Below are positions 4,708 to 45,816 of a stretch of DNA of 64,000 nt, in pieces. How positions within the stretch are numbered: the first letter of the stretch is position 1; each line of letters opens with the position of its first letter. Source of the stretch: Herbiconiux moechotypicola. Lineage in GTDB: Bacteria > Actinomycetota > Actinomycetes > Actinomycetales > Microbacteriaceae. Position numbers and translations under genes: made by a program. The notes beneath the pieces were generated by a model, which was given only the letters and a program-made list of their open reading frames with translations, ran no database searches and was not told the DNA's origin. Location: assembly GCF_024979255.1 (NCBI RefSeq), contig NZ_JANLCN010000012.1, positions 1 through 64,000 of the forward strand. Reading direction: 5' to 3'.

Positions 4708-4749
4708 ACGGGCGCGGCGCATCCGTCGCCATCGTGATGTGATCGTCGC

Positions 4750-5916
4750 ATGAGCGCACGCGTGGTGTTCGCCCCGGATTCGTTCAAGGGCACGATCTCG
4801 GCCGCCGAGGCCGCGGAGTGCCTGGCGGAGGGCTGGCGGAGCGTGCGCCCGCACGACGAGGTCGTGCTCGCGCCGATGGCCGACGGCGGCGAGGGCGTGC
4901 TCGATGCCGTCGAACGGTCGGTGCCCGGGAGCGAGCGCCGGCCTGTGACGGTGACGGCCCCCGACGATCGAGTGGTGGAGAGCTCGTGGCTGCTGCTTCC
5001 CGCTGCGGCGGGTGAAGAGGGCCCCACCGGCGTGATCGAGCTGGCCTCGACCAGTGGCATCACGATGCTGCCGCGCCTGCGGCCGCTCGAGGCGCACACG
5101 CTCGGTTTCGGGCAGGCCGTGCGGGCCGCCCTCGATGCGGGAGTGCATCGGCTCGTGCTGGCGATCGGCGGCAGCGCGTCGACCGACGGTGGGGCGGGCC
5201 TGCTCGCCGAGCTCGGCGCGCGTCTGCTGCGGGCGGACGGCACGCCCGCCGTGCCTGGGAACGCGGGGCTCGGCGAGATCGCGCGCGTCGACCTGTCCAG
5301 GATGCGGAGCCTCCCGGCCGGGGGCGCCGTCGTGCTCGGCGACGTCACGAATCCGCTGCTCGGCCGGGACGGCGCCGTCGCCGTGTTCGGTCCGCAGAAG
5401 GGTATCGGGGTGTCGATGGCCGCTCCGGCCGAGGCGCGGCTGGCGCACTTCGCCGGGGTGCTCCAGACAGCGTGCGGCACCGACCCGGAGGTGCCGGGGA
5501 CGGGCGCGGCCGGTGGCACCGGCTTCGCGCTGCTGGCGTGGGGCGCCGGACTGCAGAGCGGTGCGGAGGCCGTGGCCGAAGTGATCGGTCTCGCGCGAGC
5601 GGTCCAGGGCGCGGATGCCGTGGTGACCGGCGAGGGCCGCTACGACGGGCAGTCGGAGTCGGGCAAGGTGCCGTCGCAGGTACGGAGCACGGCGAGGAGC
5701 GCGGGGGCGAGCGCCTTGCTGGTGGCCGGTGCCTTCGGTGCGGAACCGCAGGGGTTCGACGACGCGGTGTCGCTGGTGGAGCTCGCGACGAGCTCGGAGG
5801 GCGAGGACGCGGGCGGGGAGCTCCCCGAGGCGGGTGCCGCCGCGGCCATGGCGGACCCGCATCGGTGGCTGCGCACGGCGGGTGCGGTGCTCGCGGAGCG
5901 TTTCGCCGACCGGTGA
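4750..5916 (+). CDS. glxK: Glycerate 2-kinase-type (GlxK/GarK family) glycerate kinase
   Basis: 388 residues, the usual family size. It phosphorylates D-glycerate with ATP, feeding glyoxylate- or tartronate-derived carbon into lower glycolysis. Family marks are FAPDSFKGTISA at the N-terminus, PMADGGEG (about 37-44) and GGSASTDGGAGLL (about 139-151), the glycine-rich nucleotide and substrate loops. A late VVTGEGRYDGQS motif is also typical. It starts 42 bases after the S8 gene and converges on xylulokinase with only 45 bases between the stops. No glyoxylate genes sit beside it, so it is probably a stand-alone metabolic gene. Confidence 0.92.
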   Translation: MSARVVFAPDSFKGTISAAEAAECLAEGWRSVRPHDEVVLAPMADGGEGVLDAVERSVPGSERRPVTVTAPDDRVVESSWLLLPAAAGEEGPTGVIELASTSGITMLPRLRPLEAHTLGFGQAVRAALDAGVHRLVLAIGGSASTDGGAGLLAELGARLLRADGTPAVPGNAGLGEIARVDLSRMRSLPAGGAVVLGDVTNPLLGRDGAVAVFGPQKGIGVSMAAPAEARLAHFAGVLQTACGTDPEVPGTGAAGGTGFALLAWGAGLQSGAEAVAEVIGLARAVQGADAVVTGEGRYDGQSESGKVPSQVRSTARSAGASALLVAGAFGAEPQGFDDAVSLVELATSSEGEDAGGELPEAGAAAAMADPHRWLRTAGAVLAERFADR

Positions 5917-5919
5917 ACC

Positions 5920-5955
5920 CGCGGCGCGGCGACGCCGTGGGGGCTGTGCGCCGCG
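5920..5955. terminator. Inverted repeat between convergent glycerate kinase and xylulokinase
   Basis: CGCGGCGC (5920-5927) pairs with GCGCCGCG (5948-5955) around a 20-base loop that itself contains GGCGACGCC. It lies exactly between two convergent stops, so it likely ends transcription in both directions. It has no T-run. Confidence 0.4.
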
Positions 5956-5961
5956 TGACGT

Positions 5962-7416
5962 TCAGTCGGCGGTGCGGCCCGCGTGCGCGGCGTACTGGCG
6001 GCGGATGACGGGCTGCGGATCGGGCCGGGAAGCCGCCACGACGGTGACCGGCCACGACGGCCGCTCCCCGCTCAGCACCCACGCGGCTTGGGTGGCGGCC
6101 CCGTCGGCCACGTACTCTCCCGGCGCCGGAACCGTCACGGGCACGTCGAACACCTGTGCCGCCACCGCCTGAACGGCCGGGTTGAGCGCCGCTCCGCCGA
6201 TGAGCAGGATGCGCGCCGGCACCACCCCGACGGCCCGCACGGCGTCGAGGCCGTCGGCGAGCCCGCAGAGCAGTCCCTCGACGGCGGCGCGCGCCAGTCC
6301 CGCGCGGGTCGTGGTGGCCAGCGTGAGGCCGAACAGCGTGGCGGTGGCGTCGGGCAGGTTCGGTGTGCGCTCGCCCTCGAAGTAGGGCAGCAGCACGAGA
6401 CCCCCGGCGCCCGGCTCGGCCTCGAGCGCGAGTCGGCCGAGCTCGTCGTGATCGACCCCGAGCAGCCCGGCGGCGGCATCCAGCACCCGCGCCGCGTTGA
6501 GGGTGGCCACGAGCGGGAGGTAGGCGCCGGAAGCATCGGCGAAGCCCGCGACCGCCCCTGTGGCGTCGGCGGAGGGCTGCGGCGTCACCGCGAACACCGT
6601 TCCGCTCGTGCCGATCGACACGACGACGTCTCCCTCGCGGGCTCCGAGTCCGAGGGCGGCGCCGGCGTTGTCGCCCGCCCCCGGCCCTACGGCGAGGCCG
6701 GCGGGCACGTTCACGACCGTGCCGGTCGACGAGCGCGCATCGAAGCCGGCCATCGTGCCCGCCGCCTCGGCGGGACCGAGCACGCGGGGGAGCACGACGT
6801 CGTGACCGAGGGAGGCGACGAGCAGCTCGCGGTCGTAGTCCTCGAGCCGGGGGTTCCAGTACGAGGTGCCGCTCGCGTCGGACCGGTCGGTGACGAGCTC
6901 GTCGAGCACCGGACCGAGCGGTGCGGCCCCGGCGGGCCCGAATCCGCGGAGGCGCCACGTGAGCCAGTCGTGCGGGAGGGCCACGGCGGCCACCCTGGCG
7001 GCGGCCTCCGGCTCGGCGTCGCGCAGCCAGCGGAGCTTGGTGGCCGTGAACGACGCCACGGGCACCGAGCCCGTGCGGTGGGCGAGGGAGGCCGCGCCGA
7101 ACTCCTCGATGAGCTCACGGGCGGCACCTGCCGAGCGGGTGTCGTTCCAGAGCAGGGCCGGGCGGATCACCTCGCCCCCCGCATCCAGCACCACCATGCC
7201 GTGCTGCTGCCCCGCGATCGAGATCGCGGCCACGTCGTCGAGTCCGCCGGCGTCGAGCAGGGCCTCGACGAGGGCGTCCCACCAGGTGGCGGGGTCGACC
7301 TCGGTGCCGGCCGGATGCGCGGCGCGGCCCGAGCGCACGAGGGCCCCGCTGTCGAGGTCGCGCACGACGACCTTGCAGCTCTGCGTGGACGAGTCGATGC
7401 CGGCGACGAGCGTCAT
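5962..7416 (-). CDS. xylB: Xylulokinase
   Basis: 484 residues. It phosphorylates D-xylulose to D-xylulose 5-phosphate. The FGGY kinase fold is shown by [15 protein letters not shown] at the N-terminus (phosphate-1 loop), [14 protein letters not shown] and [11 protein letters not shown] (xylulokinase-specific stretch), [11 protein letters not shown] (phosphate-2), and LIGGAALNP near the end (adenosine motif). The ATG at 7416 is preceded by GGGAGA and begins right at the conserved domain; the 20 extra upstream codons lack a ribosome site. No xylose isomerase or xylose importer is adjacent. Its product joins that of AraD and is the substrate of the phosphoketolase at 53.3 kb. Confidence 0.95.
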
Positions 7417-34181: not shown

Positions 34182-35684
34182 ATGACCACGAACTACGACG
34201 TCATCGTCTGCGGAGGCGGACCGTCGGGCTTCATCGCGGCGATCTCCGCCGGCCGCGCGGGCGCCCGCACGCTGCTCATCGAGAAGTACGGCTTCGTCGG
34301 CGGCATGGCCACCTCGGCCTGGCTCGGGCCCATCTCGCCGATGCACTTCGGCGACGAGCGGGTGATCGCGGGCATCCCCGAGGAGTTCGTCGAGCGGATG
34401 CGCCAGGCCGGCGGCTCGACGGGTCACCTGCGCTGCACCAACCCGCACGGCAGCGGCGCCTACCTCGGCTTCTACGACCGCGAGCACTACAAGTGGACCG
34501 CCATCCAGATGCTGCAGGAGGCGGGGGTCGACATCCTGTTCCACTCCTTCATCTCCGACGTGGTCGTCGACGGCGACACCGTCACGGGCGTGGAGGTGGC
34601 CAACAAGTCGGGTAAGACCGTCTACAGCGCCTCGGTCGTGGTCGACGCCACGGGCGACGGCGACGTGGCCGCGATCGCCGGCGCCGAGCACACGGTCGGC
34701 AACGACCACGGCGTCTCGCAGCCGTCGACGCTCATGTTCGACATGGCCAACGTCGACACCGAGAAGCTCAAGGCCTACATGGACGACAACCTCGACAACT
34801 TCGAGTGGGCGTCGGAGATGGTGGCGCTGCAGCCGTTCTCGGAGAAGCTGCAGCAGCAGCACTTCGTGGGGCAGGGCTTCCTCGACCTGGTGGCGCAGGG
34901 TCTCGCGAGCGAGGAGCTCTACCTCGGGCGCGACTCGATCCTGTTCCTCACCACCACGCATCCGGGGCTGGTGCACTTCAACTCCACCCGTATCGCGGGC
35001 GTCGACGGCCGCTCGGCCGAGTCGCTCACGGCGGGCGAGATCGACGGGCGCCGGCAGGTGATGTCGCTGTCGGAGTTCATCGTGAAGCACATCCCGGGCT
35101 TCGAGAACGCCTACCTCGCGGGCACGGGCACGCAGATCGGCATCCGCGAGTCGCGCCACATCACCGGCGAGTACGTCATCACGGGCGAGGACGTGCTGCA
35201 CGGCCGCAAGTTCGACGACGTGATCGCACGCGGGTACTTCCCGGTCGACATCCACAACCTCAAGGGCAAGGAGGGGTACCAGGGCGGTGGCGTCTGGGCC
35301 GATCCCGAGGACTCGTACGACATCCCGCTGCGCACGCTCATCCCCGTGCGGCTGAACGGGCTCGTCATGGCGGGCCGCGCCATCTCGGCGACGCACGAGG
35401 CGCACGGCTCGCTCCGCACGCAGGGCGGCGCGATGGGCATCGGGCACGCGGCCGGTGCGCTCGCGAGCCAGGCGGCGCTGCGGCACGAGCAGCCGCGCGA
35501 GGTGCCCTACGAGGCCGTGGAGGCGGTGCTGCTCGAGCAGAAGGCGTCGCTCCGCCGCGACCCCGAGAAGGTGCAGCGCGAGAAGGACGCGGCCGACGCG
35601 GCGAACGCGGCGGCGCTGGATGCGGGCCTCATCACGGGCCGGTACTTCCCGGGGGCCCTCGCCGGCACCGCACCGCGGCTGTAG
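34182..35684 (+). CDS. FAD-dependent oxidoreductase (FAD_oxidored family)
   Basis: 500 residues. The N-terminal dinucleotide site is VIVCGGGPSGFIAAISAGRAGARTLLIEK (Gly-x-Gly-x-x-Gly, then acidic Glu about 32), followed by GFVGGMATSAWLGP and VVDATGDGDVAAIAGAEH. The C-terminal FAD contact reads GLVMAGRAISATHEAHGSLRTQ. The family acts on small molecules and is often found in sugar- or polysaccharide-degradation operons; reactions are mostly uncharacterised. It is the last gene of the GntR operon, 16 bases after the binding protein. Confidence 0.9.
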   Translation: MTTNYDVIVCGGGPSGFIAAISAGRAGARTLLIEKYGFVGGMATSAWLGPISPMHFGDERVIAGIPEEFVERMRQAGGSTGHLRCTNPHGSGAYLGFYDREHYKWTAIQMLQEAGVDILFHSFISDVVVDGDTVTGVEVANKSGKTVYSASVVVDATGDGDVAAIAGAEHTVGNDHGVSQPSTLMFDMANVDTEKLKAYMDDNLDNFEWASEMVALQPFSEKLQQQHFVGQGFLDLVAQGLASEELYLGRDSILFLTTTHPGLVHFNSTRIAGVDGRSAESLTAGEIDGRRQVMSLSEFIVKHIPGFENAYLAGTGTQIGIRESRHITGEYVITGEDVLHGRKFDDVIARGYFPVDIHNLKGKEGYQGGGVWADPEDSYDIPLRTLIPVRLNGLVMAGRAISATHEAHGSLRTQGGAMGIGHAAGALASQAALRHEQPREVPYEAVEAVLLEQKASLRRDPEKVQREKDAADAANAAALDAGLITGRYFPGALAGTAPRL

Positions 35685-35729
35685 CCAGGCCCCGGGCCGC
35701 ATCGGCCGCCCGCACCGGCCGCCCGCACG

Positions 35730-35762
35730 CCCCCGGTGGCGCAATCGCCGCGCCACCGGGGG
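35730..35762. terminator. Strong hairpin between convergent operons
   Basis: CCCCCGGTGGCGC (35730-35742) pairs perfectly with GCGCCACCGGGGG (35750-35762) around a 7-base loop, 46 bases past the FAD oxidoreductase and 76 before the reductase stop on the other strand. It is a likely two-way terminator. Confidence 0.7.
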
Positions 35763-35837
35763 TTCGTGCTGTCGGCACCCTGTCCGGTGCCACCTCGATC
35801 GTAGGGCCTGCGACCGCTCGCGGGAGCGCTCCGAGGG

Positions 35838-36863
35838 TCAGACCGCGCTGGAGGGCGCCCAGAGGTTGATGTCGCGGTCGCCGGCGAGCTCGTCGATGCG
35901 CGCGAGCTCCTCGGCCGTGAACTCGAGGTTCTGCACCGCCGCGAGGTTGTCGTCGAGCTGCCCCACCGACGAGGCGCCGATGAGCACCGACGTCACCCGC
36001 TCGTCGCGCAGCGCCCACGACAGCGCGAGCTGCGCGAGCGACTGACCGCGCTCCTTCGCGATGGCGTCGAGCCCGCGCACGCGGTCGAGCGTCTCGGGCG
36101 TGAGCATCCGCTGCCCGAGCGAGCCGTTGCGGGCCGCCCGCGAGCCCTCGGGCACGCCGCCGAGGTAGCGGTCGGTGAGCAGCCCCTGCGCGAGCGGCGA
36201 GAAGGCGATGCAGCCGACGCCCAGCTCGCCGAGGGTGTCGAGGAGGCCGTCCTCGATCCAGCGGTTGAACATCGAGTACGAGGGCTGGTGGATGAGCAGC
36301 GGCGTGCCGAGGTCGGCCAGGATCGCCGCCGCCTCCCGTGTGCGCTCGGGGGAGTAGCTCGAGATGCCCGCGTAGAGCGCCCGGCCCGACTGCACCGCCG
36401 TGTGCAGCGCGCCCATGGTCTCCTCGAGCGGCGTGTCGGGGTCGGCTCGGTGCGAGTAGAACACGTCGACGTAGTCGACGCCGAGGCGCGCGAGCGACTG
36501 GTCGAGCGAGGCGAGCAGGTACTTGCGCGAACCCCACTCGCCGTAGGGGCCCGGCCACATGTCGTAGCCCGCCTTGGTGGAGAGCACGATCTCGTCGCGG
36601 TAGGGCGCGAAGTCCTCGGCGAAGATGCGGCCGAAGTTGGCCTCGGCGCTGCCGTAGGGCGGGCCGTAGTTGTTGGCCAGGTCGAAGTGCGTCACGCCCG
36701 AGTCGAACGCCCGGCGCAGGATGGCGCGCTGGGTGTCGATGGGGGAGTCGTCACCGAAGTTCTGCCACAGCCCGAGCGAGACGGCGGGCAGCTTGAGGCC
36801 GCTGCGCCCCGAGCGGCGATAGGGGAACGAGTCGTACCGGGTGGGGTCGGCGAGGTAGGTCAT
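35838..36863 (-). CDS. Aldo/keto reductase, L-glyceraldehyde 3-phosphate reductase (YghZ/MgrA) type
   Basis: 341 residues, ATG 36863. The AKR barrel has the catalytic Tyr in FDLANNYGPPYGSAEANFG, Lys in LSTKAGYDMWPGPYGEWGSRKYL and His in VFYSHRADPDTPLEE. The WPGPYGEWGSRKYL stretch is characteristic of the YghZ group (AKR14), which reduces L-glyceraldehyde 3-phosphate and methylglyoxal with NADPH. It lies 53 bases behind the flavin monooxygenase on the same strand and may be the last gene of that operon. Confidence 0.92.
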   Translation of the reverse strand: MTYLADPTRYDSFPYRRSGRSGLKLPAVSLGLWQNFGDDSPIDTQRAILRRAFDSGVTHFDLANNYGPPYGSAEANFGRIFAEDFAPYRDEIVLSTKAGYDMWPGPYGEWGSRKYLLASLDQSLARLGVDYVDVFYSHRADPDTPLEETMGALHTAVQSGRALYAGISSYSPERTREAAAILADLGTPLLIHQPSYSMFNRWIEDGLLDTLGELGVGCIAFSPLAQGLLTDRYLGGVPEGSRAARNGSLGQRMLTPETLDRVRGLDAIAKERGQSLAQLALSWALRDERVTSVLIGASSVGQLDDNLAAVQNLEFTAEELARIDELAGDRDINLWAPSSAV

Positions 36864-36916
36864 GGGGTGATTCTTCCAGGTCGGGGTGGCGAGGGTCCGG
36901 GATGCGCGGGTCGGGT

Positions 36917-38290
36917 TCAGGATGCGCGCGTCGGCACGCGCCGGGCCGCAGCGGCCGGGTGGTCGGCCGGCAGGCGGCGCTCGCCGAAGAGCCGCTCGCG
37001 GAAGGTGACGCCGCGCCGCGCATCCGTGCCGCCCGCATCCCCCAGCACCCCGCGCGCCCGCAGCTCGGGCACCACGTGCTCCACGAACTCCCGGTACGAC
37101 CCCGGCGACACGAACGGCGTGTAGTTGAACCCGTCGACCCCGGTCTCCTCGGCCAGCCGCACCATCTGCTCCGCGATCTCGGCGCCCGTGCCCAACAGGA
37201 TGAACTCGCGCATCCCGTGCCGTACGAAGTCGCTGAACGCCTCGGCCGCCGTCTTGCCGTTGTAGCGGGAGACCTGGGTGCGGCTCTGCTCGGTCGACAG
37301 CGACGACACCTCGGTCTCGGGGTCGAGCGCGGCGAGGTCGATGCCGGTCATCTGCGCGAAGTACACCCGCACGGCGTCTTCGTTCACGTAGGAGAGGTAG
37401 TCGTCGAGCTTGCGCTGCGCGTCGGCGCGGTCGGTGCCGACCACCGCCGAGAGTCCCACGACGGTCTTGATCGACCCGGCGGTGCGCCCCGCCTCCACGG
37501 CGCGCGCCCTGATGTCGGCCACCTGCCGCGTGAGCGACGCGGCGTCGGCGCCCTGCAGGAACACGACCTCGGCGTTGCGCGAGGCGAACGCCATGCCCGC
37601 GGGCGAGGCCCCGGCCTGGAAGATCACCGGGGTGCGCTGCGGCGACGGCTCGGAGTTGAAGTACCCCTCCACCGAGAAGTAGGTGCCGTGGTGCGAGACA
37701 GGCCTCACCTTCGCCGGGTCGGCGTAGAGCCTCGCCTGCTTGTCGGCGACCACGGCGTCGTCGTCCCACGAGCCCTCGAACAGCTGGTAGCTCAGCTGCA
37801 GGTACTCCTCGGCGATGGCGTAGCGCTCGTCGTGCGGCACGAACCGCTCGTGCCCGAACAGGTCGCGCACCACGGTGCTCGTGGTGGTGACCACGTTCCA
37901 CGCGATGCGCCCGCGGGTGAGGTGGTCGAGCGTGGCGAAGCGGCGCGCGTTGGCGTAGGGCGCCTCGAAGGTGGTGGAGGTGGTGACCGCGAAGGAGAGC
38001 CGCTCGGTGGCCGCGGCGAGCGCCGGGATGAGCAGCATCGGGTCGTTCTTGGGGATCTCGGCGGCCTGCTCGAACGCCACGTCGGGCGTCGCCCCGTCGA
38101 TGCTCGGGTAGCCGTAGGAGTCGGCGAAGAACAGCCAGTCGAAGCCGCCGCTCTCGAGCAGGCGGGCGAGGTCGATCCAGTAGTCGATGTCGGTGTAGCG
38201 GTGGGTCTGGGTCTCGGGATGGGCCCACAGGCCCTGGCTGGTGAGGTTGACGCCGTTGATCTCGAAGGCGCCGAGGTGGATGCGTGTCAT
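36917..38290 (-). CDS. LLM-class flavin monooxygenase (NtaA/SnaA/DszA subgroup)
   Basis: 457 residues, the normal size of this subgroup. Marks: GLWAHPETQTHRYTDIDYWIDLARLLE, FDWLFFADSYG, ATERLSFAVTTSTTFEAPYANARRFATLDHLTRGRIAWNVVT (FMN phosphate area) and VIFQAGASPAGMAFA. Relatives oxidise nitrilotriacetate, dibenzothiophene sulfone, pristinamycin precursors or N-acyl-S-alkyl cysteines using reduced FMN and oxygen. No flavin reductase is encoded nearby. Its neighbours are an N-heterocycle-like deaminase homologue and an NMT1-type importer, so a nitrogen- or sulfur-containing substrate is plausible. Confidence 0.9.
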   Translation of the reverse strand: MTRIHLGAFEINGVNLTSQGLWAHPETQTHRYTDIDYWIDLARLLESGGFDWLFFADSYGYPSIDGATPDVAFEQAAEIPKNDPMLLIPALAAATERLSFAVTTSTTFEAPYANARRFATLDHLTRGRIAWNVVTTTSTVVRDLFGHERFVPHDERYAIAEEYLQLSYQLFEGSWDDDAVVADKQARLYADPAKVRPVSHHGTYFSVEGYFNSEPSPQRTPVIFQAGASPAGMAFASRNAEVVFLQGADAASLTRQVADIRARAVEAGRTAGSIKTVVGLSAVVGTDRADAQRKLDDYLSYVNEDAVRVYFAQMTGIDLAALDPETEVSSLSTEQSRTQVSRYNGKTAAEAFSDFVRHGMREFILLGTGAEIAEQMVRLAEETGVDGFNYTPFVSPGSYREFVEHVVPELRARGVLGDAGGTDARRGVTFRERLFGERRLPADHPAAAARRVPTRAS

Positions 38291-38359
38291 GGTGGTCCTC
38301 TGGTCGTGACGGATGAAGGGGGTGACGGATGCGCGGGCGCGCGGCCCGCCTCCGTCACG

Positions 38360-39388
38360 TCATCCGGGCGCGGCGGTGAACCAGGCGGCGAGCGAGTCGC
38401 GGTACACGGAGCGGGTGCGCGGCGACATGCCGGGCAGCAGCATGCCGCCGGAGCTGACACCCGCGAGCCGGCGGTCGTCGAGCCCCCACACCTCGCGGGC
38501 GATCCGCCACTGGTCGAGCACCGAGTGCCCGAACCAGAGCGGGTCGTCGGCGTTGAGGGTGACGGGCACCCCCGCCGCGATGAGGAGGGGGCCGGGATGC
38601 GCGGCGAGGCTCTCGCTCACACCCAGCCGCACGTTCGAGACGGGGCAGATGTCGCACACGATGTGCTGCTCGGCGAGCCGGGCGACGAGCTCGTCGCTCT
38701 CGACGGCGCGCACGCCGTGCGAGAGCCGGGTGGCGCCCAGCACGTCGAGGGCCTCGAGGATGCTGTCGGGCCCGCCGGTCTGGCCGGCGTGGGAGACGAT
38801 CTGCAACCCGGCGTCCTGGGCGATGCGGGCCACGGGCACGAAGCGGGCGAGACCCGCGGGCTCGACGAAGCCGGCCGTGCCGAGGGCGGTGACGCCGCGC
38901 CAGAAGCCGGTGCCCGTGCCACCCGACACGCCCGGCCCGGCCAGCGCCGCTGCCGTGCGGGCGAGCTCGAGGGCGATCGGCTCGTCCTGGTCGGTGTTGA
39001 CGGTGAGGTTCGCGCCCACCTCGATGCCCGCCTCCTCGGCGCCCTGCGCGAGGGCGTCGACCATGGTGCGGGCGACGGTGTCGATGCCGCCCAGGCGGCG
39101 TGCGTAGAGCTGCGGCTCGATCGCGGGCTCGAGGTAGAGCACCCCGAGCGCCGCCTCGGCGTGCACCAGCGCGCGGCAGAGCCCGGCGAGGTCGTCGAGT
39201 GAGCGCACGAGCTCGGGCACGGTGCCGTAGGCCTCGAAGAAGTCCCACACATCGGGGAAGGAATCGGGCACCTCGAAGTCGGCGCCCTGACGCGCGGCGA
39301 GCGCCTGCACGGCCGCCAGCGGGTAGGAGCCGTCGAGGTGCACGTGCGCGTGCACCTTCGGCAGCGCCCGCAGCTCGCGCCCGCTCAC
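38360..39388 (-). CDS. Adenosine deaminase family protein with catalytic Glu replaced by Gln
   Basis: 342 residues. GTG overlaps the permease stop (GTGA). The amidohydrolase fold and metal ligands are kept: KVHAHVHLDGSYP (His-x-His), VSHAGQTGGPDSI (third His), LSHGVRAV and TLNADDPLWFG (Asp-Asp). The family motif is HAGE; here codon CAG gives HAGQ, replacing the Glu that shuttles protons in adenosine deaminase. The rest is well conserved, so this is not decay but probably altered chemistry or substrate. It is embedded in an importer operon rather than in purine salvage. Confidence 0.85.
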   Translation of the reverse strand: MSGRELRALPKVHAHVHLDGSYPLAAVQALAARQGADFEVPDSFPDVWDFFEAYGTVPELVRSLDDLAGLCRALVHAEAALGVLYLEPAIEPQLYARRLGGIDTVARTMVDALAQGAEEAGIEVGANLTVNTDQDEPIALELARTAAALAGPGVSGGTGTGFWRGVTALGTAGFVEPAGLARFVPVARIAQDAGLQIVSHAGQTGGPDSILEALDVLGATRLSHGVRAVESDELVARLAEQHIVCDICPVSNVRLGVSESLAAHPGPLLIAAGVPVTLNADDPLWFGHSVLDQWRIAREVWGLDDRRLAGVSSGGMLLPGMSPRTRSVYRDSLAAWFTAAPG

Positions 39389-40917
39389 GCGCCCCACCTC
39401 GCCAGCAGCTTCTTCTCCAGCAGCGCGGCGCCCGCGTAGGCGAGCACCGACAGCACGATCGCCACCGCCACGGCGGCCCACGAGCCGGCGGTGTCGAGCA
39501 TCACCCGGCGTTCGCTGAACACCCGCCCGAGGCCGCCCTCGCCCATCAGCCACTCGGCCGAGAGCGCGATGAGAAAGCAGTTCGCGGCGGCGAGCCGGAT
39601 CGCCACGAGCAGCGACGGCACCGAGGCCGGCAGCGCCAGCCGCACCAGCCGCTTCACCCGCCCGGCGCCGTACACGCTGAACAGGTCGTCGCTGCCGAGG
39701 GGCCGCGCCCGCAGCCCCGAGAGCGCGAGCACGTAGAGCGGGAAGAACGCCATCAGTACGCACGACGCGAACACGGTCTGCATGCCGTAGCCGAGCATCC
39801 CGCCGATCACCGGGATGAACACCACGATCGGCACCGTCGGGATGACGAGCGCGAGCGGCGACAGCATCGACGCCAGCCAGGGCACGAGGGTCACGACGAC
39901 CGCGAGCGCGAGCCCCACGAGCGCGCCGCAGAGCAGACCGCCGAGGGCGGAGAGCGTGGTGAGCCCGGCCGCGGCGAGCAGGTCGAGCGCGCCGTCGCCG
40001 AGGGCGGCCACCACCTGCAGCGGCTGCGGTGCGACGATGAGCGGCACGCGCCCGAGCAGCACCCACAGCTGCCACGCCACGACGAGCGCGAGCGGGATGG
40101 CGATGCCGATGACCGTCGCGAGCCCCCGCGAGAGCGCGGGCACCGCCGAGGGCGTCTCGCCGGTGCGCCCGAACCGGCGGGTGGCGCTCTTCTCGAGCAA
40201 CGTGGCCAGGGCGTAGAACACCACCGACACGAGCACGGTGATGAGCGCGGCGGCCCAGAGCTGCCCGTACTGCACGTTGCGCATCGAGGAGACCATCACC
40301 ACGCCGAGCCCGCGTTCGGCCCCGAACCACTCGCCGAGGATGGCGCCCAGGATGGCGGCGGGCACGGCCAGCCGCAGCGCGTCGGCGGCCATCGGCAGCG
40401 CGGAGGGCGCTTCGAGCCGCACGAACCGCTGCAGCCGGGTCGCCCCGAACACCCGGAACACGTCACGCCCGGCCCGGCTCACGGTGCGGAACCCGTCGCT
40501 CGTGGCGAGCGTGGTGCTGAACAGCACCGAGAGCGCCGCGAAGATCTCGGGGATGAAGGGCCTGGCCGCCCCGGTCATGAGCACGGGACCGATCGCCACG
40601 ATGGGGATGGCGTTGATGAGCACCGTCGTGCGCACGAGCGGAGTGGTCGAGCGTGGGAACCACGCGGTGATCGAGGCCAGCACGAGCCCGATCGCGTACC
40701 CGATGAGACCACCGACGAGGGCGCGCTGGCTGGTGGCGAGTGTCGCCCGCCAGAGCACGTCACCGCGTTCGGCCAGGGCCGCGAGCACCTCGGTGGGCGG
40801 CGGCACCGAGCGGCCGAGTAGCTGCGTGGTGCCGGCGAGCTGCCAGAAGGCGATCAGCACCACGACCCCGGCGATCGGCAGCACGATGCGCGAGAGTGCG
40901 CCCGACGGCGACCTCAC
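39385..40917 (-). CDS. Fused double permease of a nitrate/sulfonate/thiamine-precursor-type ABC importer
   Basis: 510 residues, about twice a normal SsuC/ThiX permease, made of two consecutive permease domains. Domain 1 ends in LRLAVPAAILGAILGEWFGAERGLGVVM and domain 2 in RLAAANCFLIALSAEWLMGEGGLGRVF, the same ending motif twice. Each half has its own cytoplasmic coupling loop (RFVRLEAPSALPM and RLVRLALPASVPSL). The single chain would replace the usual homodimer. GTG overlaps the ATPase stop and its own stop overlaps the deaminase GTG, so the three genes are tightly coupled. Confidence 0.9.
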   Translation of the reverse strand: MRSPSGALSRIVLPIAGVVVLIAFWQLAGTTQLLGRSVPPPTEVLAALAERGDVLWRATLATSQRALVGGLIGYAIGLVLASITAWFPRSTTPLVRTTVLINAIPIVAIGPVLMTGAARPFIPEIFAALSVLFSTTLATSDGFRTVSRAGRDVFRVFGATRLQRFVRLEAPSALPMAADALRLAVPAAILGAILGEWFGAERGLGVVMVSSMRNVQYGQLWAAALITVLVSVVFYALATLLEKSATRRFGRTGETPSAVPALSRGLATVIGIAIPLALVVAWQLWVLLGRVPLIVAPQPLQVVAALGDGALDLLAAAGLTTLSALGGLLCGALVGLALAVVVTLVPWLASMLSPLALVIPTVPIVVFIPVIGGMLGYGMQTVFASCVLMAFFPLYVLALSGLRARPLGSDDLFSVYGAGRVKRLVRLALPASVPSLLVAIRLAAANCFLIALSAEWLMGEGGLGRVFSERRVMLDTAGSWAAVAVAIVLSVLAYAGAALLEKKLLARWGA

Positions 40918-41726
40918 GCGGCGGTCCCGGCCGACGAGGTGCCCGGGCCGGCGCCGGAGCCGGTCTCGCTGTCGTCGGCGTCGAGCGCCGCCGTGAGTTC
41001 GCCCACGAGCGAGAGGAACGCCGGGTCTTGCAGCACGCTCTTGGAGCGGCCCCGCCCGAACGGCACGGCCACGTCGAGCTTCACCCGGCCCGGCCGGCCG
41101 GTCATCACCACGACGCGGTCGGCGAGGAAGACGGCCTCCTCCACCGAGTGGGTCACGAGCAGGCTCGTCGACCGCTCCTCGTCGAGGATGCGCCCGAGCT
41201 CCACGTTGAGGCGGTGCCGGGTGACGGCGTCGAGGGCCCCGAACGGCTCGTCGAGCAGCAGCACCCGCGGCGAGAGCACGAGCGAGCGGGCGATGGAGAC
41301 GCGCTGGCGCATGCCGCCCGAGAGCTGCGCGGGCTTGGCGCCGCCGAAGTCGGCCAGGCCGACGAGCGCGATGAGGGAGTCCACCCGGGCGCGGTCGACG
41401 GGACGCCCGGCGAGCTTGTAGGGCAGCTCCACGTTGGCGCGCACGCTCAGCCAGGGCAGCAGCGCGTTGTCCTGGAAGGCCACGCCGAGCCCGCCCGAGG
41501 CCACGAGGCGCTCGGGGCTGTCGCCCGCCACCGTCACGGTGCCCGAGTCGGCCGTGTCGAGCCCGGCCGCGATCCGCAGCGCGGTCGACTTGCCGCATCC
41601 CGACGGCCCGAGCACGGCCACGAACTCCCCGTCCTCCACCGCGAGGGTGAAGTCGTCGAGGGCGTGCACCACACCGGAGCGGGTGGTGAAGCGCTTGCTG
41701 ACGCCGGAGAGTTCGAGGCCGTGCAT
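40914..41726 (-). CDS. ABC importer ATP-binding protein (SsuB/TauB/ThiZ type)
   Basis: 270 residues. Walker A GPSGCGKST (about 40-48), Q-loop FQDNALLPWL, signature LSGGMRQRV, Walker B LLLDEPFGALD, switch His in LVTHSVEEAVFLADRVVVM. The ALLPWLSVRANVELPYKL and VTHSVEEA stretches place it in the nitrate/sulfonate/taurine/HMP importer group. The C-terminal 20 residues are a Ser/Gly/Asp-rich tail. ATG 41726. Confidence 0.94.
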   Translation of the reverse strand: MHGLELSGVSKRFTTRSGVVHALDDFTLAVEDGEFVAVLGPSGCGKSTALRIAAGLDTADSGTVTVAGDSPERLVASGGLGVAFQDNALLPWLSVRANVELPYKLAGRPVDRARVDSLIALVGLADFGGAKPAQLSGGMRQRVSIARSLVLSPRVLLLDEPFGALDAVTRHRLNVELGRILDEERSTSLLVTHSVEEAVFLADRVVVMTGRPGRVKLDVAVPFGRGRSKSVLQDPAFLSLVGELTAALDADDSETGSGAGPGTSSAGTAA

Positions 41727-41768
41727 GGTGGATCCTGTCGGGTGGGTGACTCGGGTTCGGCTACTCGG

Positions 41769-42824
41769 CTACTCGGCGGCCGGCGCGGGCACGAGCGTCG
41801 TGTCGAACGCGGTGGCCGGGTCGGGCAGCTCGGTGACCCCGGATGCGGTGAGCGCGTCGTACATCGGGCCCGAGATGGCCTCGGGGTCGAGGGCCAGCAG
41901 CCCGTGCTCCGCGGTGTAGTCGCTCTGCACGAGTCCAGCGATGGCGGTGAGGGAGGCCACCTCCGACTCCTCGTCGAGGCCGAGGTCGGTGCCGTAGCTG
42001 CCGAGGGTGAGGGCCACGGCGGCCTCGGGGTCGGCGACCGCGTCGTCCCAGCCCTTCTGGCTGGCGCTCACGAAGCCCGCCACCGCATCCGGGTTCGCGT
42101 CGAGGAACTCGCGAGTGGTCACGATGAGGCCCGCGTACGACTCGAAGCCGAGGTCGGCGAAGGTGATGGTGTTCACGTCGATGCCCTGCAGGAGGTAGGG
42201 GATCGGCTGGTTGGTGACGTAGGCGTAGTAGGCGTCGATCTGGCCGTCGAAGAGGGGAGCGGCGTCGTAGCCGACGCGCACGTCTTCGTAGTCGGGCTCG
42301 AGTCCGTTCACGCGGAAGAGGGTGTTGAGGTCGGCGGTGCCCGACTCGTCGGTGCCGATGCGGAGGCCGACCAGGTCGTCGATGGAGCTGATCGGGCGGT
42401 CGGGGAGGGTCATGATGCCGGCCGGCGACTCCTGGTAGACCGCGCCGACGGCCACGAGGTCGGCGCCGGTGTTGATGGCGTCGACGAGCCGCGACATGTT
42501 CGACACGACGCCGATCTGGGCGCCACCGCCCGCGATGACCGCGGCGGTCGAGGCGACGTCGCCGCCGTCGAGGAAGGTCACGTCGACGCCGGCGTCGGCG
42601 TAATAGCCCTTGTCGTCGGCGGTGAAGTAGCCCGAGAACTGGCTGTCCTTCACCCAGTCGAGCTGGAAGCTGATGGGCGTGGAGCCGTCGCCGTCTCCCG
42701 TGCCGGCGTCGCTCGACGCGGAACAGGCGGAGAGGGCCAGGGCGGCGGCGGCCAGCGTGGCGAGCGCCACGGCCGGGCGCACGGTGCGGCGGGCGGCGCC
42801 GCGGGCGGAGGAGGGACGGATCAC
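41769..42824 (-). CDS. NMT1/THI5-like substrate-binding lipoprotein
   Basis: 351 residues. GTG 42824 is chosen because GGAG lies six bases upstream and translation leads straight into a lipoprotein signal (AVALATLAAAALALSACSAS, Cys about 33). The NMT1 opening ISFQLDWVKDSQFSGYFTADDKGYYADAGVDVTFLDGG is typical of proteins binding pyrimidine thiamine precursors, riboflavin or other N-heterocycles. GAQIGVVSNMSRLVDAI and YYAYVTNQPIPYLL line the cleft in relatives. First gene of the operon, divergent from LysR. The ligand is unknown. Confidence 0.9.
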   Translation of the reverse strand: MIRPSSARGAARRTVRPAVALATLAAAALALSACSASSDAGTGDGDGSTPISFQLDWVKDSQFSGYFTADDKGYYADAGVDVTFLDGGDVASTAAVIAGGGAQIGVVSNMSRLVDAINTGADLVAVGAVYQESPAGIMTLPDRPISSIDDLVGLRIGTDESGTADLNTLFRVNGLEPDYEDVRVGYDAAPLFDGQIDAYYAYVTNQPIPYLLQGIDVNTITFADLGFESYAGLIVTTREFLDANPDAVAGFVSASQKGWDDAVADPEAAVALTLGSYGTDLGLDEESEVASLTAIAGLVQSDYTAEHGLLALDPEAISGPMYDALTASGVTELPDPATAFDTTLVPAPAAE

Positions 42825-43078
42825 GGAGGGCTCCAGCGGTTCGGGATGCGGGACGGATGGGAGTGATGCGTGGTGCTGCGTGGTGCTGTGTCGATGCGAC
42901 TGTAGGCGGGCGCCTCGGGAGGTCTCCAATTCGATTGCCCACTGACGTCATAAGATGGATCAATGACCGCGGTCTGACGGGCATCCGGGGCCCTCTGGAG
43001 CGTGCCGGACCGCGTGAGATTTAACACCGGGGAAACACCGGAGACAGGGCGCCGACGCGGGCGTGGAAGGGGGAGGTC

Positions 43079-44068
43079 GTGGACCTCAGGCAGCTGCGGC
43101 AGTTCACCGCCGTCGCCGACGCCCGCAGCTTCACCGCGGCGGCCGCCGAGCTCGGCATGTCGCAGCCCGCGCTCAGTCAGGCCATCGCCCGGCTCGAGCG
43201 CGAGCTCGACTGCGTGCTGGTGCTGCGCAACAAGCAGAACCCCGGCGCCGGCCTGCTGCTCACGCCGGCGGGGGAGTCGCTCTACGCCGACGCGGCGGCG
43301 CTGCTCGTGGCCGCGCACCGCGCCGAGGAGCGGGCCAGGCGCGCGGGTCGCGGGCTCACGGTGCCGCCGGTCGCCGTGGGCTTCAGCTCGAGCACGCCGC
43401 AGGCGCTGGTGGCCGCCGCGGTAGGCCTGTCGGGCGGCGGAGGCGGAGGCGGCGGCGCGGCCGGCGGTGCGGGAGGCGACGTCATCCCCGTGCAGCTCGA
43501 CTGGGCGCACGAGCACGAGTCCGTGGTGAGCGGGCTGGTCGACCTCGCGTTCCTGCAGTACCCGGCCGGCACGGGGTTCGCGGGGCACGAGGTGGTGACC
43601 CTCGACCGGGTGCCGCGGGTGGCGATCGTGGCGGCCGCGCATCCGCTGGCCTCGCGCGCCGAGGTGACACTGGCGGAGCTCGGCGGCGAACCGGTGCTCG
43701 ACCCCGGTCTCGGGGAGGGCCCGTCGAGTTTCCGCGAGTTCTGGCTCGCCGGCCCGCGCCCCGCCGAGGCGCCGCTCGGCCCGATCGTGGGCCCGCCGGC
43801 GCGCACGGTGGAGGAGATGTGCACCTTCGTCTCGGCCGGCCGCGGCATGGCCATCGCCTCGGGGGTGCTCGCCGGGCAGTACCACCGGCCCGACCTCGCG
43901 TTCGTGCCGATCGCGGGGATCGAGCCGATCGAGGTGGGGGTGGCGAAGCTCAGCGAAGACCACCGGCCCCAGGTGCTCGCCGTGTGGGAGGCGCTCACCG
44001 GGGGCGCCGGCGGGCTCGGCGACGCGCGCCTCGCCCCGGGCGGGGCGGGGCCTCAGAACTCGGTGTGA
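43079..44068 (+). CDS. LysR-family regulator divergent from the deaminase importer operon
   Basis: 329 residues, GTG with GGGGGAGG upstream. N-terminal HTH: LRQFTAVADARSFTAAAAELGMSQPALSQAIARLE. A stretch of eight Gly plus Ala/Gly (about 120-137) interrupts the start of the effector domain. The rest is typical: HEVVTLDRVPRVAIVAAAHPLA and EMCTFVSAGRGMAIASGV. LysR proteins usually control the divergent operon, here the one starting at 42824. The 254-base gap between them is less GC-rich near 42925-42965 and should hold both promoters. The end overlaps the convergent GH35 gene by 16 bases. Confidence 0.92.
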   Translation: MDLRQLRQFTAVADARSFTAAAAELGMSQPALSQAIARLERELDCVLVLRNKQNPGAGLLLTPAGESLYADAAALLVAAHRAEERARRAGRGLTVPPVAVGFSSSTPQALVAAAVGLSGGGGGGGGAAGGAGGDVIPVQLDWAHEHESVVSGLVDLAFLQYPAGTGFAGHEVVTLDRVPRVAIVAAAHPLASRAEVTLAELGGEPVLDPGLGEGPSSFREFWLAGPRPAEAPLGPIVGPPARTVEEMCTFVSAGRGMAIASGVLAGQYHRPDLAFVPIAGIEPIEVGVAKLSEDHRPQVLAVWEALTGGAGGLGDARLAPGGAGPQNSV

Positions 44069-45816
44069 CCCAGGTCGGGCGTCGCCACGAAACGCACCCC
44101 GGTCGACGCCGCGTGCAGCTCGAGCAGCAGCACCTCGTTCACCCCGGCGTGCACCACGGGTGCCGGCACGTAGAGCGTGTGCTGTGGCCCGCGCGACCAG
44201 TAGCGGCCGAGGTTCACGCCGTTCACCCAGAGCACGCCCTTGCCCCAGTCGCGCGTGTGCACGAACAGATCGGTGGGCGCCTCGAGCGTGAACTCGCCGC
44301 GCACGAACGCGGGGCCGGCGACCACGGTCGACTCCAGCGGGGCCAGGAGCGCCCGCACCCCGTCGAGCGCCGCCGCGTCGTCGAGGCCGAGCGGCAGCGC
44401 CTCCCAGCGCAGCAGCGGCTCGCCGTTCAGGCGCGCGGTGCCGATGAGGCCCTTCGGTTCGCCGATGCGCTCGCCGTAGTCCACCCGCCCCTGGTCCTCG
44501 ACCAGCAGGTCGAGCGTGCCCCGCGCATCCGCCGGCAGCGTGAGCCTGCGGTCGTGGTGGTCGCGCGCCAGCACGCCCACGGGGGCGCCGTTCAGCAGCA
44601 CCACCGCGCGGTCGCGCACCTCGTCGATCTCGAACACGGCCTCGCCCTGCACGTCGATCTCGGCGCGGTAGAGCACGAAGCCGTCGTACTGCTGCAGCGA
44701 GTCCATGGTGGGCACGCCGTCGTGCGGCGCGAACGCGCCGAGCGGGCCGAGCGCGCCGAGCAGGGGCACGGATGCGGTGAGCCGCGCCTCGAAGGCGGGC
44801 GCGGGCTCCGACACGACGGGCGCGTCGGTGGGCACCGAACCGTACTTCGCGAGCACCTCGCGGAACGCCCAGTACTTCTCGGTGGGGTCGCCGCGCTCGT
44901 CGAGCGGGGCGTCGTAGTCGTAGCTCGTGACGATGGGCTTGTAGACGCCCTTGTCGTTGGCGCCGTTGGTGAACCCGGCGTTGGTGCCGCCGTGGAACAT
45001 GTAGATGTTCACCGAGGCGCCGGCGGCGAGCAGCTCGTCGAGGTCGTGCGCCGACTGCTCGGTGGAGGTGGTGTGGTGGTGCTCGCCCCAGTCGTCGAAC
45101 CAGCCGTCCCAGAACTCCGAGCACATGAGCGGCCCAGTGGGCTGGAACCGGCGGAGGGTCGCGAGCCGTTCGGTGGAGCGCGAGCCGAACGACGCGGTCT
45201 TGTGGAGCGTGGGCAGGCTGCCGTCGACGAGCATCTCGGGGGTGGGCTGGTCGACCGTGGTGAACGGCACGGTGAGGCCGATGGCCCGGTTCATCGCCAC
45301 GAGCTTCTCGAGGTAGACCGGGTCGGAGCCGTAGGCGCCGTACTCGTTCTCGATCTGGATGAGGATGATCGGCCCGCCCTGATCGATCTGGCGCGGCACG
45401 AGCACCGGCGCGAGGTTCGCGAACAGCTCCTCCACGGCGGCGAGGTACTGCGGCTCGTCGCGGCGCACGCCCACGGTGCCCGACTCGAACAGCCAGGCCG
45501 GCAGGCCGCCGTTGTGCCACTCGGCGCAGATGTAGGGGCCGGGGCGCACGATCGCGTGCATCCCCTCGGCCGCCACGTCGTCGAGAAAACGGCCGAGGTC
45601 GAGGGCGCCGGTGAGGTCGAACTCGCCGCGGCGTTTGGCGTGGGCGTTCCAGGCCACGTAGGTCTCGATGGTGTTGAGGCCCATCTGCTTGGCCTTGCGG
45701 ATGCGGTCGCGCCACAGGTCGGGGTGCACGCGGAAGTAGTGCAGCGCCCCGGAGAGGATGCGGAACGGCTCCCCGTCGAGCTCGAAGTGCTCGTCGCCGA
45801 TACGGAACTCAGACAT
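44053..45816 (-). CDS. Beta-galactosidase, glycoside hydrolase family 35
   Basis: 587 residues, no signal peptide, so cytoplasmic. The GH35 barrel has YFRVHPDLWRDRIRKAKQMGLNTIETYVAWNAH, RPGPYICAEWHNGGLPAWL, the acid/base in IILIQIENEYGAYG (Glu about 152) and the nucleophile in PLMCSEFWDGWFDDWG. The C-terminal half (about 380-587) is beta-rich with jelly-roll-like parts (VWVNGVNLGRYW). It removes terminal beta-galactose from imported oligosaccharides. It overlaps the GH51 stop by eight bases and shares its operon, which suggests arabinogalactan-derived substrates. Confidence 0.95.
   Translation of the reverse strand: MSEFRIGDEHFELDGEPFRILSGALHYFRVHPDLWRDRIRKAKQMGLNTIETYVAWNAHAKRRGEFDLTGALDLGRFLDDVAAEGMHAIVRPGPYICAEWHNGGLPAWLFESGTVGVRRDEPQYLAAVEELFANLAPVLVPRQIDQGGPIILIQIENEYGAYGSDPVYLEKLVAMNRAIGLTVPFTTVDQPTPEMLVDGSLPTLHKTASFGSRSTERLATLRRFQPTGPLMCSEFWDGWFDDWGEHHHTTSTEQSAHDLDELLAAGASVNIYMFHGGTNAGFTNGANDKGVYKPIVTSYDYDAPLDERGDPTEKYWAFREVLAKYGSVPTDAPVVSEPAPAFEARLTASVPLLGALGPLGAFAPHDGVPTMDSLQQYDGFVLYRAEIDVQGEAVFEIDEVRDRAVVLLNGAPVGVLARDHHDRRLTLPADARGTLDLLVEDQGRVDYGERIGEPKGLIGTARLNGEPLLRWEALPLGLDDAAALDGVRALLAPLESTVVAGPAFVRGEFTLEAPTDLFVHTRDWGKGVLWVNGVNLGRYWSRGPQHTLYVPAPVVHAGVNEVLLLELHAASTGVRFVATPDLGHTEF

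Follow-up and report, generated by a model that had tools for sequence, protein, structure and literature searches.

Which compound is imported and broken down by an operon whose hydrolase has the fold of a deaminase without its general acid? The question is raised by positions 35838 to 42824, minus strand, of the window, i.e. the whole 64,000-nucleotide stretch of contig NZ_JANLCN010000012.1 of Herbiconiux moechotypicola analysed here. There, genes for an ATP-binding cassette (ABC) importer, a metal hydrolase, a flavin monooxygenase and an aldo-keto reductase (AKR) lie divergent from a gene for a LysR-type regulator. The gene content, its co-occurrence in relatives, the exchange of importers, two residue changes in the hydrolase, to Gln and Thr, and an upstream palindrome, all read from the sequences, make it rather probable that a nucleobase-like N-heterocycle, in the likeliest case a modified purine, is taken up and catabolised through this LysR-linked operon. 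The parts of the locus are the following.

41769..42824, minus strand: NMT1/THI5-type ABC importer binding protein (PF09084, 159 bits; relatives of 64-76% identity in five other operon loci)
40914..41726, minus strand: ABC ATPase of the importer (PF00005; relatives of 70-78% identity in five other operon loci)
39385..40917, minus strand: ABC permease, a single chain with two permease domains (PF00528 in two stretches; 4-base overlaps on both sides)
38360..39388, minus strand: adenosine-deaminase-fold metal hydrolase of the Gln clade, with Q203 for the general-acid Glu and T132 for Arg (PF00962, 184 bits; motif columns, AlphaFold2 (AF2) model and tree)
36917..38290, minus strand: luciferase-like (LLM) monooxygenase dependent on flavin mononucleotide (FMN), NtaA/DmoA family (TIGR03860, 451 bits, cut-off 279.7; nearest folds RcaE, LadA and DmoA)
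35838..36863, minus strand: AKR of the AKR14A/YghZ type (NF007388, 512 bits, cut-off 448; relatives of 71-78% identity in seven other operon loci)
43079..44068, plus strand: divergent LysR-type regulator (PF00126, PF03466; 20 of the 21 other loci also have a LysR gene, of 37-56% identity, divergent from the operon)
42947..42968, minus strand: palindromic operator-like site GGTCAT-N11-ATGAC in the gap between LysR gene and operon (exact GGTYAT-N11-ATRAC in 6 of 21 gaps)

All six genes are genuine and form one set with the divergent LysR gene. The Pfam scores of all seven proteins lie far over the cut-offs, and a sequence-only reading made beforehand described the layout correctly: six co-directional minus-strand genes run from 42824 to 35838 divergent from LysR, with every open reading frame (ORF) ending as given there; gaps of 69 and 53 bases precede the monooxygenase and the AKR; and the deaminase it called altered carries HAGQ in place of HAGE. 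Its three overlapping genes are joined by two overlaps of 4 bases each, ATPase/permease and permease/hydrolase. The receptor and ATPase genes are separated by 42 bases. A GTG at 42824 starts the receptor gene, longer starts being possible, and the encoded N terminus looks lipoprotein-like by eye.

The hydrolase was searched for in 60 genomes (own included), in the genus (2 of 16 genomes positive, own included), in 396 genomes of the order (own included; 8 with E <= 1e-60), in 396 genomes of the phylum, where the own genome was the one positive, and in the genus g36 (7 of 11 genomes); one scan of genome contigs gave 13 loci, among them an outsider at 24% (L047). The subfamily set comprises 22 loci (the window, L035-L046, L048, L049 and L057-L063), which are spread over Actinomycetota, Pseudomonadota and Acidobacteriota. 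Gene content was recounted over these loci with fixed identity cut-offs. Start codons in the relatives were chosen by script, which bears on the overlap figures, and two loci (L037, L038) lie on short contigs ending early, so that gene absences there are uncertain. The subfamily was not found in a plasmid collection, whose 92 matching records all stayed under 60% identity to the hydrolase, the best listed at about 34%.

The change in the hydrolase is common to the whole set. The general-acid column of the alignment holds Gln in 22/22 operon hydrolases versus Glu in 32/32 other family members, and a second column holds Thr in all 22 versus Arg in all 32; the comparison members are the family matches with given loci from the 60-genome and contig searches. 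The metal ligands H15, H17, H200 and D281, the catalytic H224 and the second Asp, D282, are invariant in a 40-row alignment that includes all 22 Gln members. Loss of a further Glu was considered as a group trait and rejected, as 8 of the 22 Gln members keep Glu at that column. In the tree, a long-stemmed branch with full support (100/100) sets all Gln members on one side; with the root placed at the midpoint, L008 and L011, genes near NMT1 importers, fall in the adjacent group of 18. Alphaproteobacterial members are nested among actinobacterial ones, which suggests horizontal transfer, although one alphaproteobacterial member and the acidobacterial member come from metagenome assemblies.

The AF2 model of the hydrolase (predicted local distance difference test, pLDDT, 94.6) has as its nearest solved structure the adenine deaminase 3rys, at a template-modelling (TM) score of 0.85-0.86 in Foldseek. 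Of the features that define an adenosine or adenine deaminase (EC 3.5.4.4 / 3.5.4.2), the fold, the zinc ligands, the catalytic His and the second Asp are present and the Glu of HxGE is absent. The adenosine deaminase model TIGR01430 (cut-off 216.55) is narrowly missed by the window protein (187.5) and by its relative in L046 (210.6), a sign that is weak alone; among seven Glu-type controls six pass, and the seventh (L005, 206.2) fails but is accepted by a different adenosine deaminase model. Judged by the HAGE motif and residue numbering, the Gln column is presumably the position of Glu217 in mouse adenosine deaminase. That residue donates a proton to purine N1, as stated in an excerpt of a paper on the enzyme (PMC9483566). 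A tentative proposal, held at somewhat less than even chances, is that the Gln-type proteins form a separate family of the adenosine deaminase fold that no longer deaminates by protonating N1. They would instead open the ring, dealkoxylate or release an N-oxidised group in a different zinc-dependent hydrolysis of a modified nucleobase prepared by the monooxygenase, the operon then being the first pathway described for that compound and spread between phyla.

The most constant company of the hydrolase is the monooxygenase, found in 21 of the 22 loci (exception L063), as is the LysR gene (exception L037). A 4-base overlap joins the hydrolase and monooxygenase genes in nine (L037-L045) of the 14 relatives whose loci were mapped. 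In the order sample, a monooxygenase of at least 61% identity occurs in seven genomes, all within the eight that bear the hydrolase; the hypergeometric P under independence is 3e-14, although six of the seven belong to one genus and independence is thereby overstated. The linkage is not due to chance. The next monooxygenases in this sample at E <= 1e-120 stand at 50-51% (five g29 genomes), 48% (an additional copy in G212) and 46% (own genome).

Other genes come and go. A flavin reductase gene is present in eight loci (L035, L036, L040-L042, L044-L046), the window having none; it was confirmed as PF01613 on one example, and the own genome holds flavin reductase homologues elsewhere at 26-30% identity only, one of them with an internal stop. 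An AKR of at least 71% identity occurs in eight loci (window, L035, L036, L041, L042, L044, L048, L049), and an amine oxidase, confirmed by family search on one example, in three (L039, L043, L046), never alongside the AKR. L040 carries upstream AKR genes of 32-38% identity. Membership of the AKR in the operon is supported by its 4-base overlap with the preceding gene in four relatives (L035, L042, L044, L049; script-picked start codons). Its orthologues equal or exceed the hydrolase in conservation, so the AKR tells little about the substrate. By gene content, the hydrolase and monooxygenase pair is the core of the operon, with the flavin reductase, AKR and amine oxidase as accessories and an exchangeable importer.

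The regulator appears to belong to the same unit. In the LysR gaps of 21 loci, read by eye (L037 lacking the gene), the exact pattern occurs in the window, L035, L036, L046, L048 and L049; a weaker palindrome was seen by eye in L038, L041 and L045 and none in the seven g36 LysR gaps. Since the pattern was built from these sequences, its rarity elsewhere is the sole test. Across 106 loci one further exact site was found (L046:16618), L076-L078 repeating known sites. In the own genome (4.28 million bases) the exact pattern occurs twice, once in the LysR gap and once at G000:C50:173555; this second site was taken as chance, its neighbouring ORFs looking unrelated by eye. With one mismatch allowed, the window gives two matches, which are the two strands of one site, a number not beyond chance given that 21 of 100 shuffles had as many. 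The palindrome is a putative operator through which LysR may control the operon. Co-occurrence in relatives, whose absence was half of what would have refuted the sequence-only reading, was found. Together with the gene overlaps in relatives and the shared palindrome, it supports both an operon for uptake and breakdown of an N-heterocycle and the inclusion of the monooxygenase and AKR, which had been left as a possibility; that the AKR acts on an aldehyde product stays a guess.

What the operon acts on is best approached through its importers. The window importer is of the NMT1/THI5 type, a PF09084 receptor with ATPase and permease, and shares this with five relatives (L036, L042, L046, L048, L049). 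An NCS1-type symporter gene takes its place in 15 of the 22 loci (L035, L037-L040, L043-L045, L057-L063), L041 has neither type and no locus has both. ATPases of 37-41% identity in L035, L041 and the g36 loci were left out of the importer count, and the counts are not independent events, as the tree joins five of the six ABC loci (94/95, below the tree's star). In L049, the receptor gene and the ATPase gene lie on opposite sides of LysR. Just past LysR in L041 (Kaistia, 2928-6828), there are genes that by eye resemble those of a polyamine-type ABC importer, possibly a third importer type. Genes past the NCS1 gene in two g36 loci look ordinary on reading, no family search having been made. Permeases of a length similar to the fused one at 39385-40917 are encoded in one ORF in the operon relatives, and those of L090 and L092 align over most of its length.

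Because an NCS1-type symporter replaces the ABC importer, the hydrolase has an adenine deaminase fold and some sister importers lie near deaminase genes, the substrate would fall in the nucleobase class; this evidence favours a nucleobase-like, probably purine-type compound over riboflavin, thiamin pyrimidine and sulfonates. The 60 genomes gave 21 sister NMT1 receptors at E <= 1e-40, not counting the three that belong to operon loci. Seven of them lie within 10 kb of a deaminase-family match, versus 0.35 expected, on a deaminase list lacking roughly a dozen of the weakest matches of the 60-genome search.

Several points weigh against this reading. Four of the seven sister receptors near a deaminase come from one genus, leaving about four lineages, and 14 of the 21 have no listed deaminase-family match within 10 kb. 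The NCS1 example matches PF02133 (115 bits) and stays below the NCBIfam ncs1 cut-off (74.8 vs 353.1), so that the substrate class is less sure than the fold family; no solved structure was found for it by sequence at E <= 0.001. Sulfonates and vitamins, too, are handled by members of the NMT1 and LLM families. An AKR of this type is missing from 14 of the 22 loci, including L037 and L038 on their short contigs. L063 (genome G142, contig C3) keeps LysR, the Gln-type hydrolase and the NCS1 gene in a genome that has no monooxygenase at E <= 1e-150, and the gap between hydrolase and NCS1 genes is too short for one; oxidation is hence not always needed, which argues that the hydrolase can serve without the monooxygenase. 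Finally, the own genome contains a sister NMT1-ABC importer (L095, G000:C7:22000-38000; receptor 36-39% identity) with several LLM genes and no deaminase match, possibly another uptake-and-oxidation locus.

Two of the seven sister loci near a deaminase add to the nucleobase reading. In L088 (G019:C3:409500-426500), the NMT1-ABC genes are accompanied by a PF00962 deaminase of the Glu type, an amidohydrolase piece, a gene that looks TetR-like by eye and, in divergent orientation, an LLM monooxygenase; this locus is likely a canonical counterpart of the window operon. In L091 (G037:C1:1517500-1534000), NMT1-ABC genes lie near a deaminase-family match seemingly split over two ORFs, together with a 2-oxoglutarate-Fe(II) oxygenase, a cytidine-deaminase-type (CDA-type) deaminase and a molybdoenzyme of the xanthine dehydrogenase/aldehyde oxidase type.

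For the modified nucleobase, we infer the substrate class, the order of steps, the chemistry and the control by LysR as follows. The compound would be taken in by the NMT1-type ABC importer, in relatives by the NCS1-type symporter, and then oxidised by the two-component flavin monooxygenase, probably such that a substituent bound through N, O or S is oxidatively removed or modified. The reduced flavin (FMNH2) would come from a flavin reductase, encoded in the operon of eight relatives and presumably elsewhere in the own genome. The zinc hydrolase would displace the substituent that corresponds to the one on purine C6. With Gln for its general-acid Glu, it would act on a substrate that needs no protonation at the N1 equivalent, for instance one in which the group leaves more readily, the ring carries a lactam N-H or a nitrogen is oxidised. 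The AKR, or the amine oxidase in other genomes, might clear the released aldehyde or amine. Cytokinin breakdown, tried as a lead, was neither supported nor excluded; the word "deaminase" did not occur in the main text of the one review consulted (PMC8234997).

Two rival readings have vitamins or their parts as substrates. In a salvage or breakdown of the thiamin pyrimidine (hydroxymethylpyrimidine- or formyl-aminomethylpyrimidine-like, HMP/FAMP-like), the NMT1 importer and CytX-like NCS1 proteins would transport 4-amino-2-methylpyrimidines, which the hydrolase would strip of their 4-amino group. The solved sequence relatives of the receptor, 4nmy, 3ix1 (formyl-aminopyrimidine binder) and yeast THI5/THI13, point this way, the NCS1 protein also scores with TIGR02358 CytX (49 bits vs cut-off 310) and the amine oxidase could act on an aminomethylpyrimidine. 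However, the PN-x-x-H stretch of 4nmy and 3ix1, a candidate part of the thiamin-pyrimidine ligand site, is not kept in the aligned window receptor, and Gln for Glu would be unfavourable for deaminating a 4-aminopyrimidine. Rfam searched at E <= 0.1 over 35000-45000 matched no family, including no thiamin pyrophosphate (TPP) or FMN riboswitch, and thiamin-pyrimidine use is unlikely overall. NMT1 receptors for riboflavin are known, and the nearest monooxygenase fold is RcaE (42% identity, TM 0.90), as would suit a riboflavin lyase in riboflavin or lumichrome breakdown. A riboflavin lyase should be clearly closer to RcaE than to other members, but LadA is equally close (44%) and outscores it in bits in the sequence search; DmoA follows at 40%, all three at fold TM 0.85-0.90, RutA is a distant fold match (19% identity), and the monooxygenase belongs to the broad family without special closeness to RcaE, LadA or DmoA. 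Its model has a moderate mean pLDDT of 78.0, and its overall fold alone was used. The enzymes of the operon also differ from those of the lumichrome pathway, namely a cytochrome P450, LumH/I/M hydrolases and a TPP decarboxylase in the part of the source consulted (PMC12746152). With the missing FMN riboswitch and an importer exchange pointing to nucleobases, riboflavin is highly improbable. The candidate list of the sequence-only reading is accordingly kept for purine- and nucleobase-like compounds, through NCS1 exchange, hydrolase fold and sister importers, and riboflavin becomes the less likely entry.

The role of the hydrolase itself separates two further explanations from the nucleobase operon. 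Were the locus devoted to organosulfur use, with an SsuABC-like importer, an SsuD/DmoA-like monooxygenase and a bystander deaminase homologue, the below-cut-off matches to SsuA and SsuC models and the presence of DmoA and SfnG among the monooxygenase fold matches would be explained; yet no gene accompanies the monooxygenase more constantly than the hydrolase does, and the importer gives way to NCS1-type symporters in relatives, which leaves this very unlikely. The lost general acid could instead mean that the Gln protein is a non-catalytic sensor or scaffold beside a monooxygenase that does the chemistry alone. Such a protein is hardly to be expected given the invariance of zinc ligands, catalytic His and second Asp in the 40 rows, and G142, which keeps the hydrolase without the monooxygenase, is the opposite of what it predicts.

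A general acid replaced group-wide and across phyla in a well-studied hydrolase family raises the question of which other reactions this fold can support. With two enzymes, two interchangeable importers and a regulator, the operon offers a handle for finding the substrate by ordinary assays; if that substrate is a modified purine, the operon would name a missing route for such compounds. Among the papers listed in the literature searches, none was recognised as an account of this operon or of a deaminase of the Gln type.

Among known systems, the adenine deaminases 3rys (AAur1117) and 3ou8 (Pseudomonas aeruginosa) share with the window hydrolase the fold (TM 0.80-0.86), the zinc site, the catalytic His, the second Asp and the ExxxxPQ stretch, whereas the window protein, at 27-28% identity, has Gln for the general-acid Glu and Thr for Arg. 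The monooxygenase resembles RcaE, LadA and DmoA in fold and in its TIGR03860 score, about equally far from each at 40-44% identity, but is partnered by a deaminase homologue. In the Rut pyrimidine pathway (RutA and RutF), an LLM monooxygenase and a flavin reductase act on a nucleobase; the window monooxygenase is only 19% identical to RutA, and the importer and hydrolase differ. Also close are the NMT1 importers of L088-L092 from the same taxonomic order (receptor 33-37% identity, ATPase 51-56%), with a deaminase-family match within 4 kb; the aligned deaminases of L088 (L008) and L089 (L011) carry Glu where the window has Gln. The operon is a variant of an already known type of catabolic operon with one odd enzyme, and its novel part is the acid-less hydrolase group tied to it.

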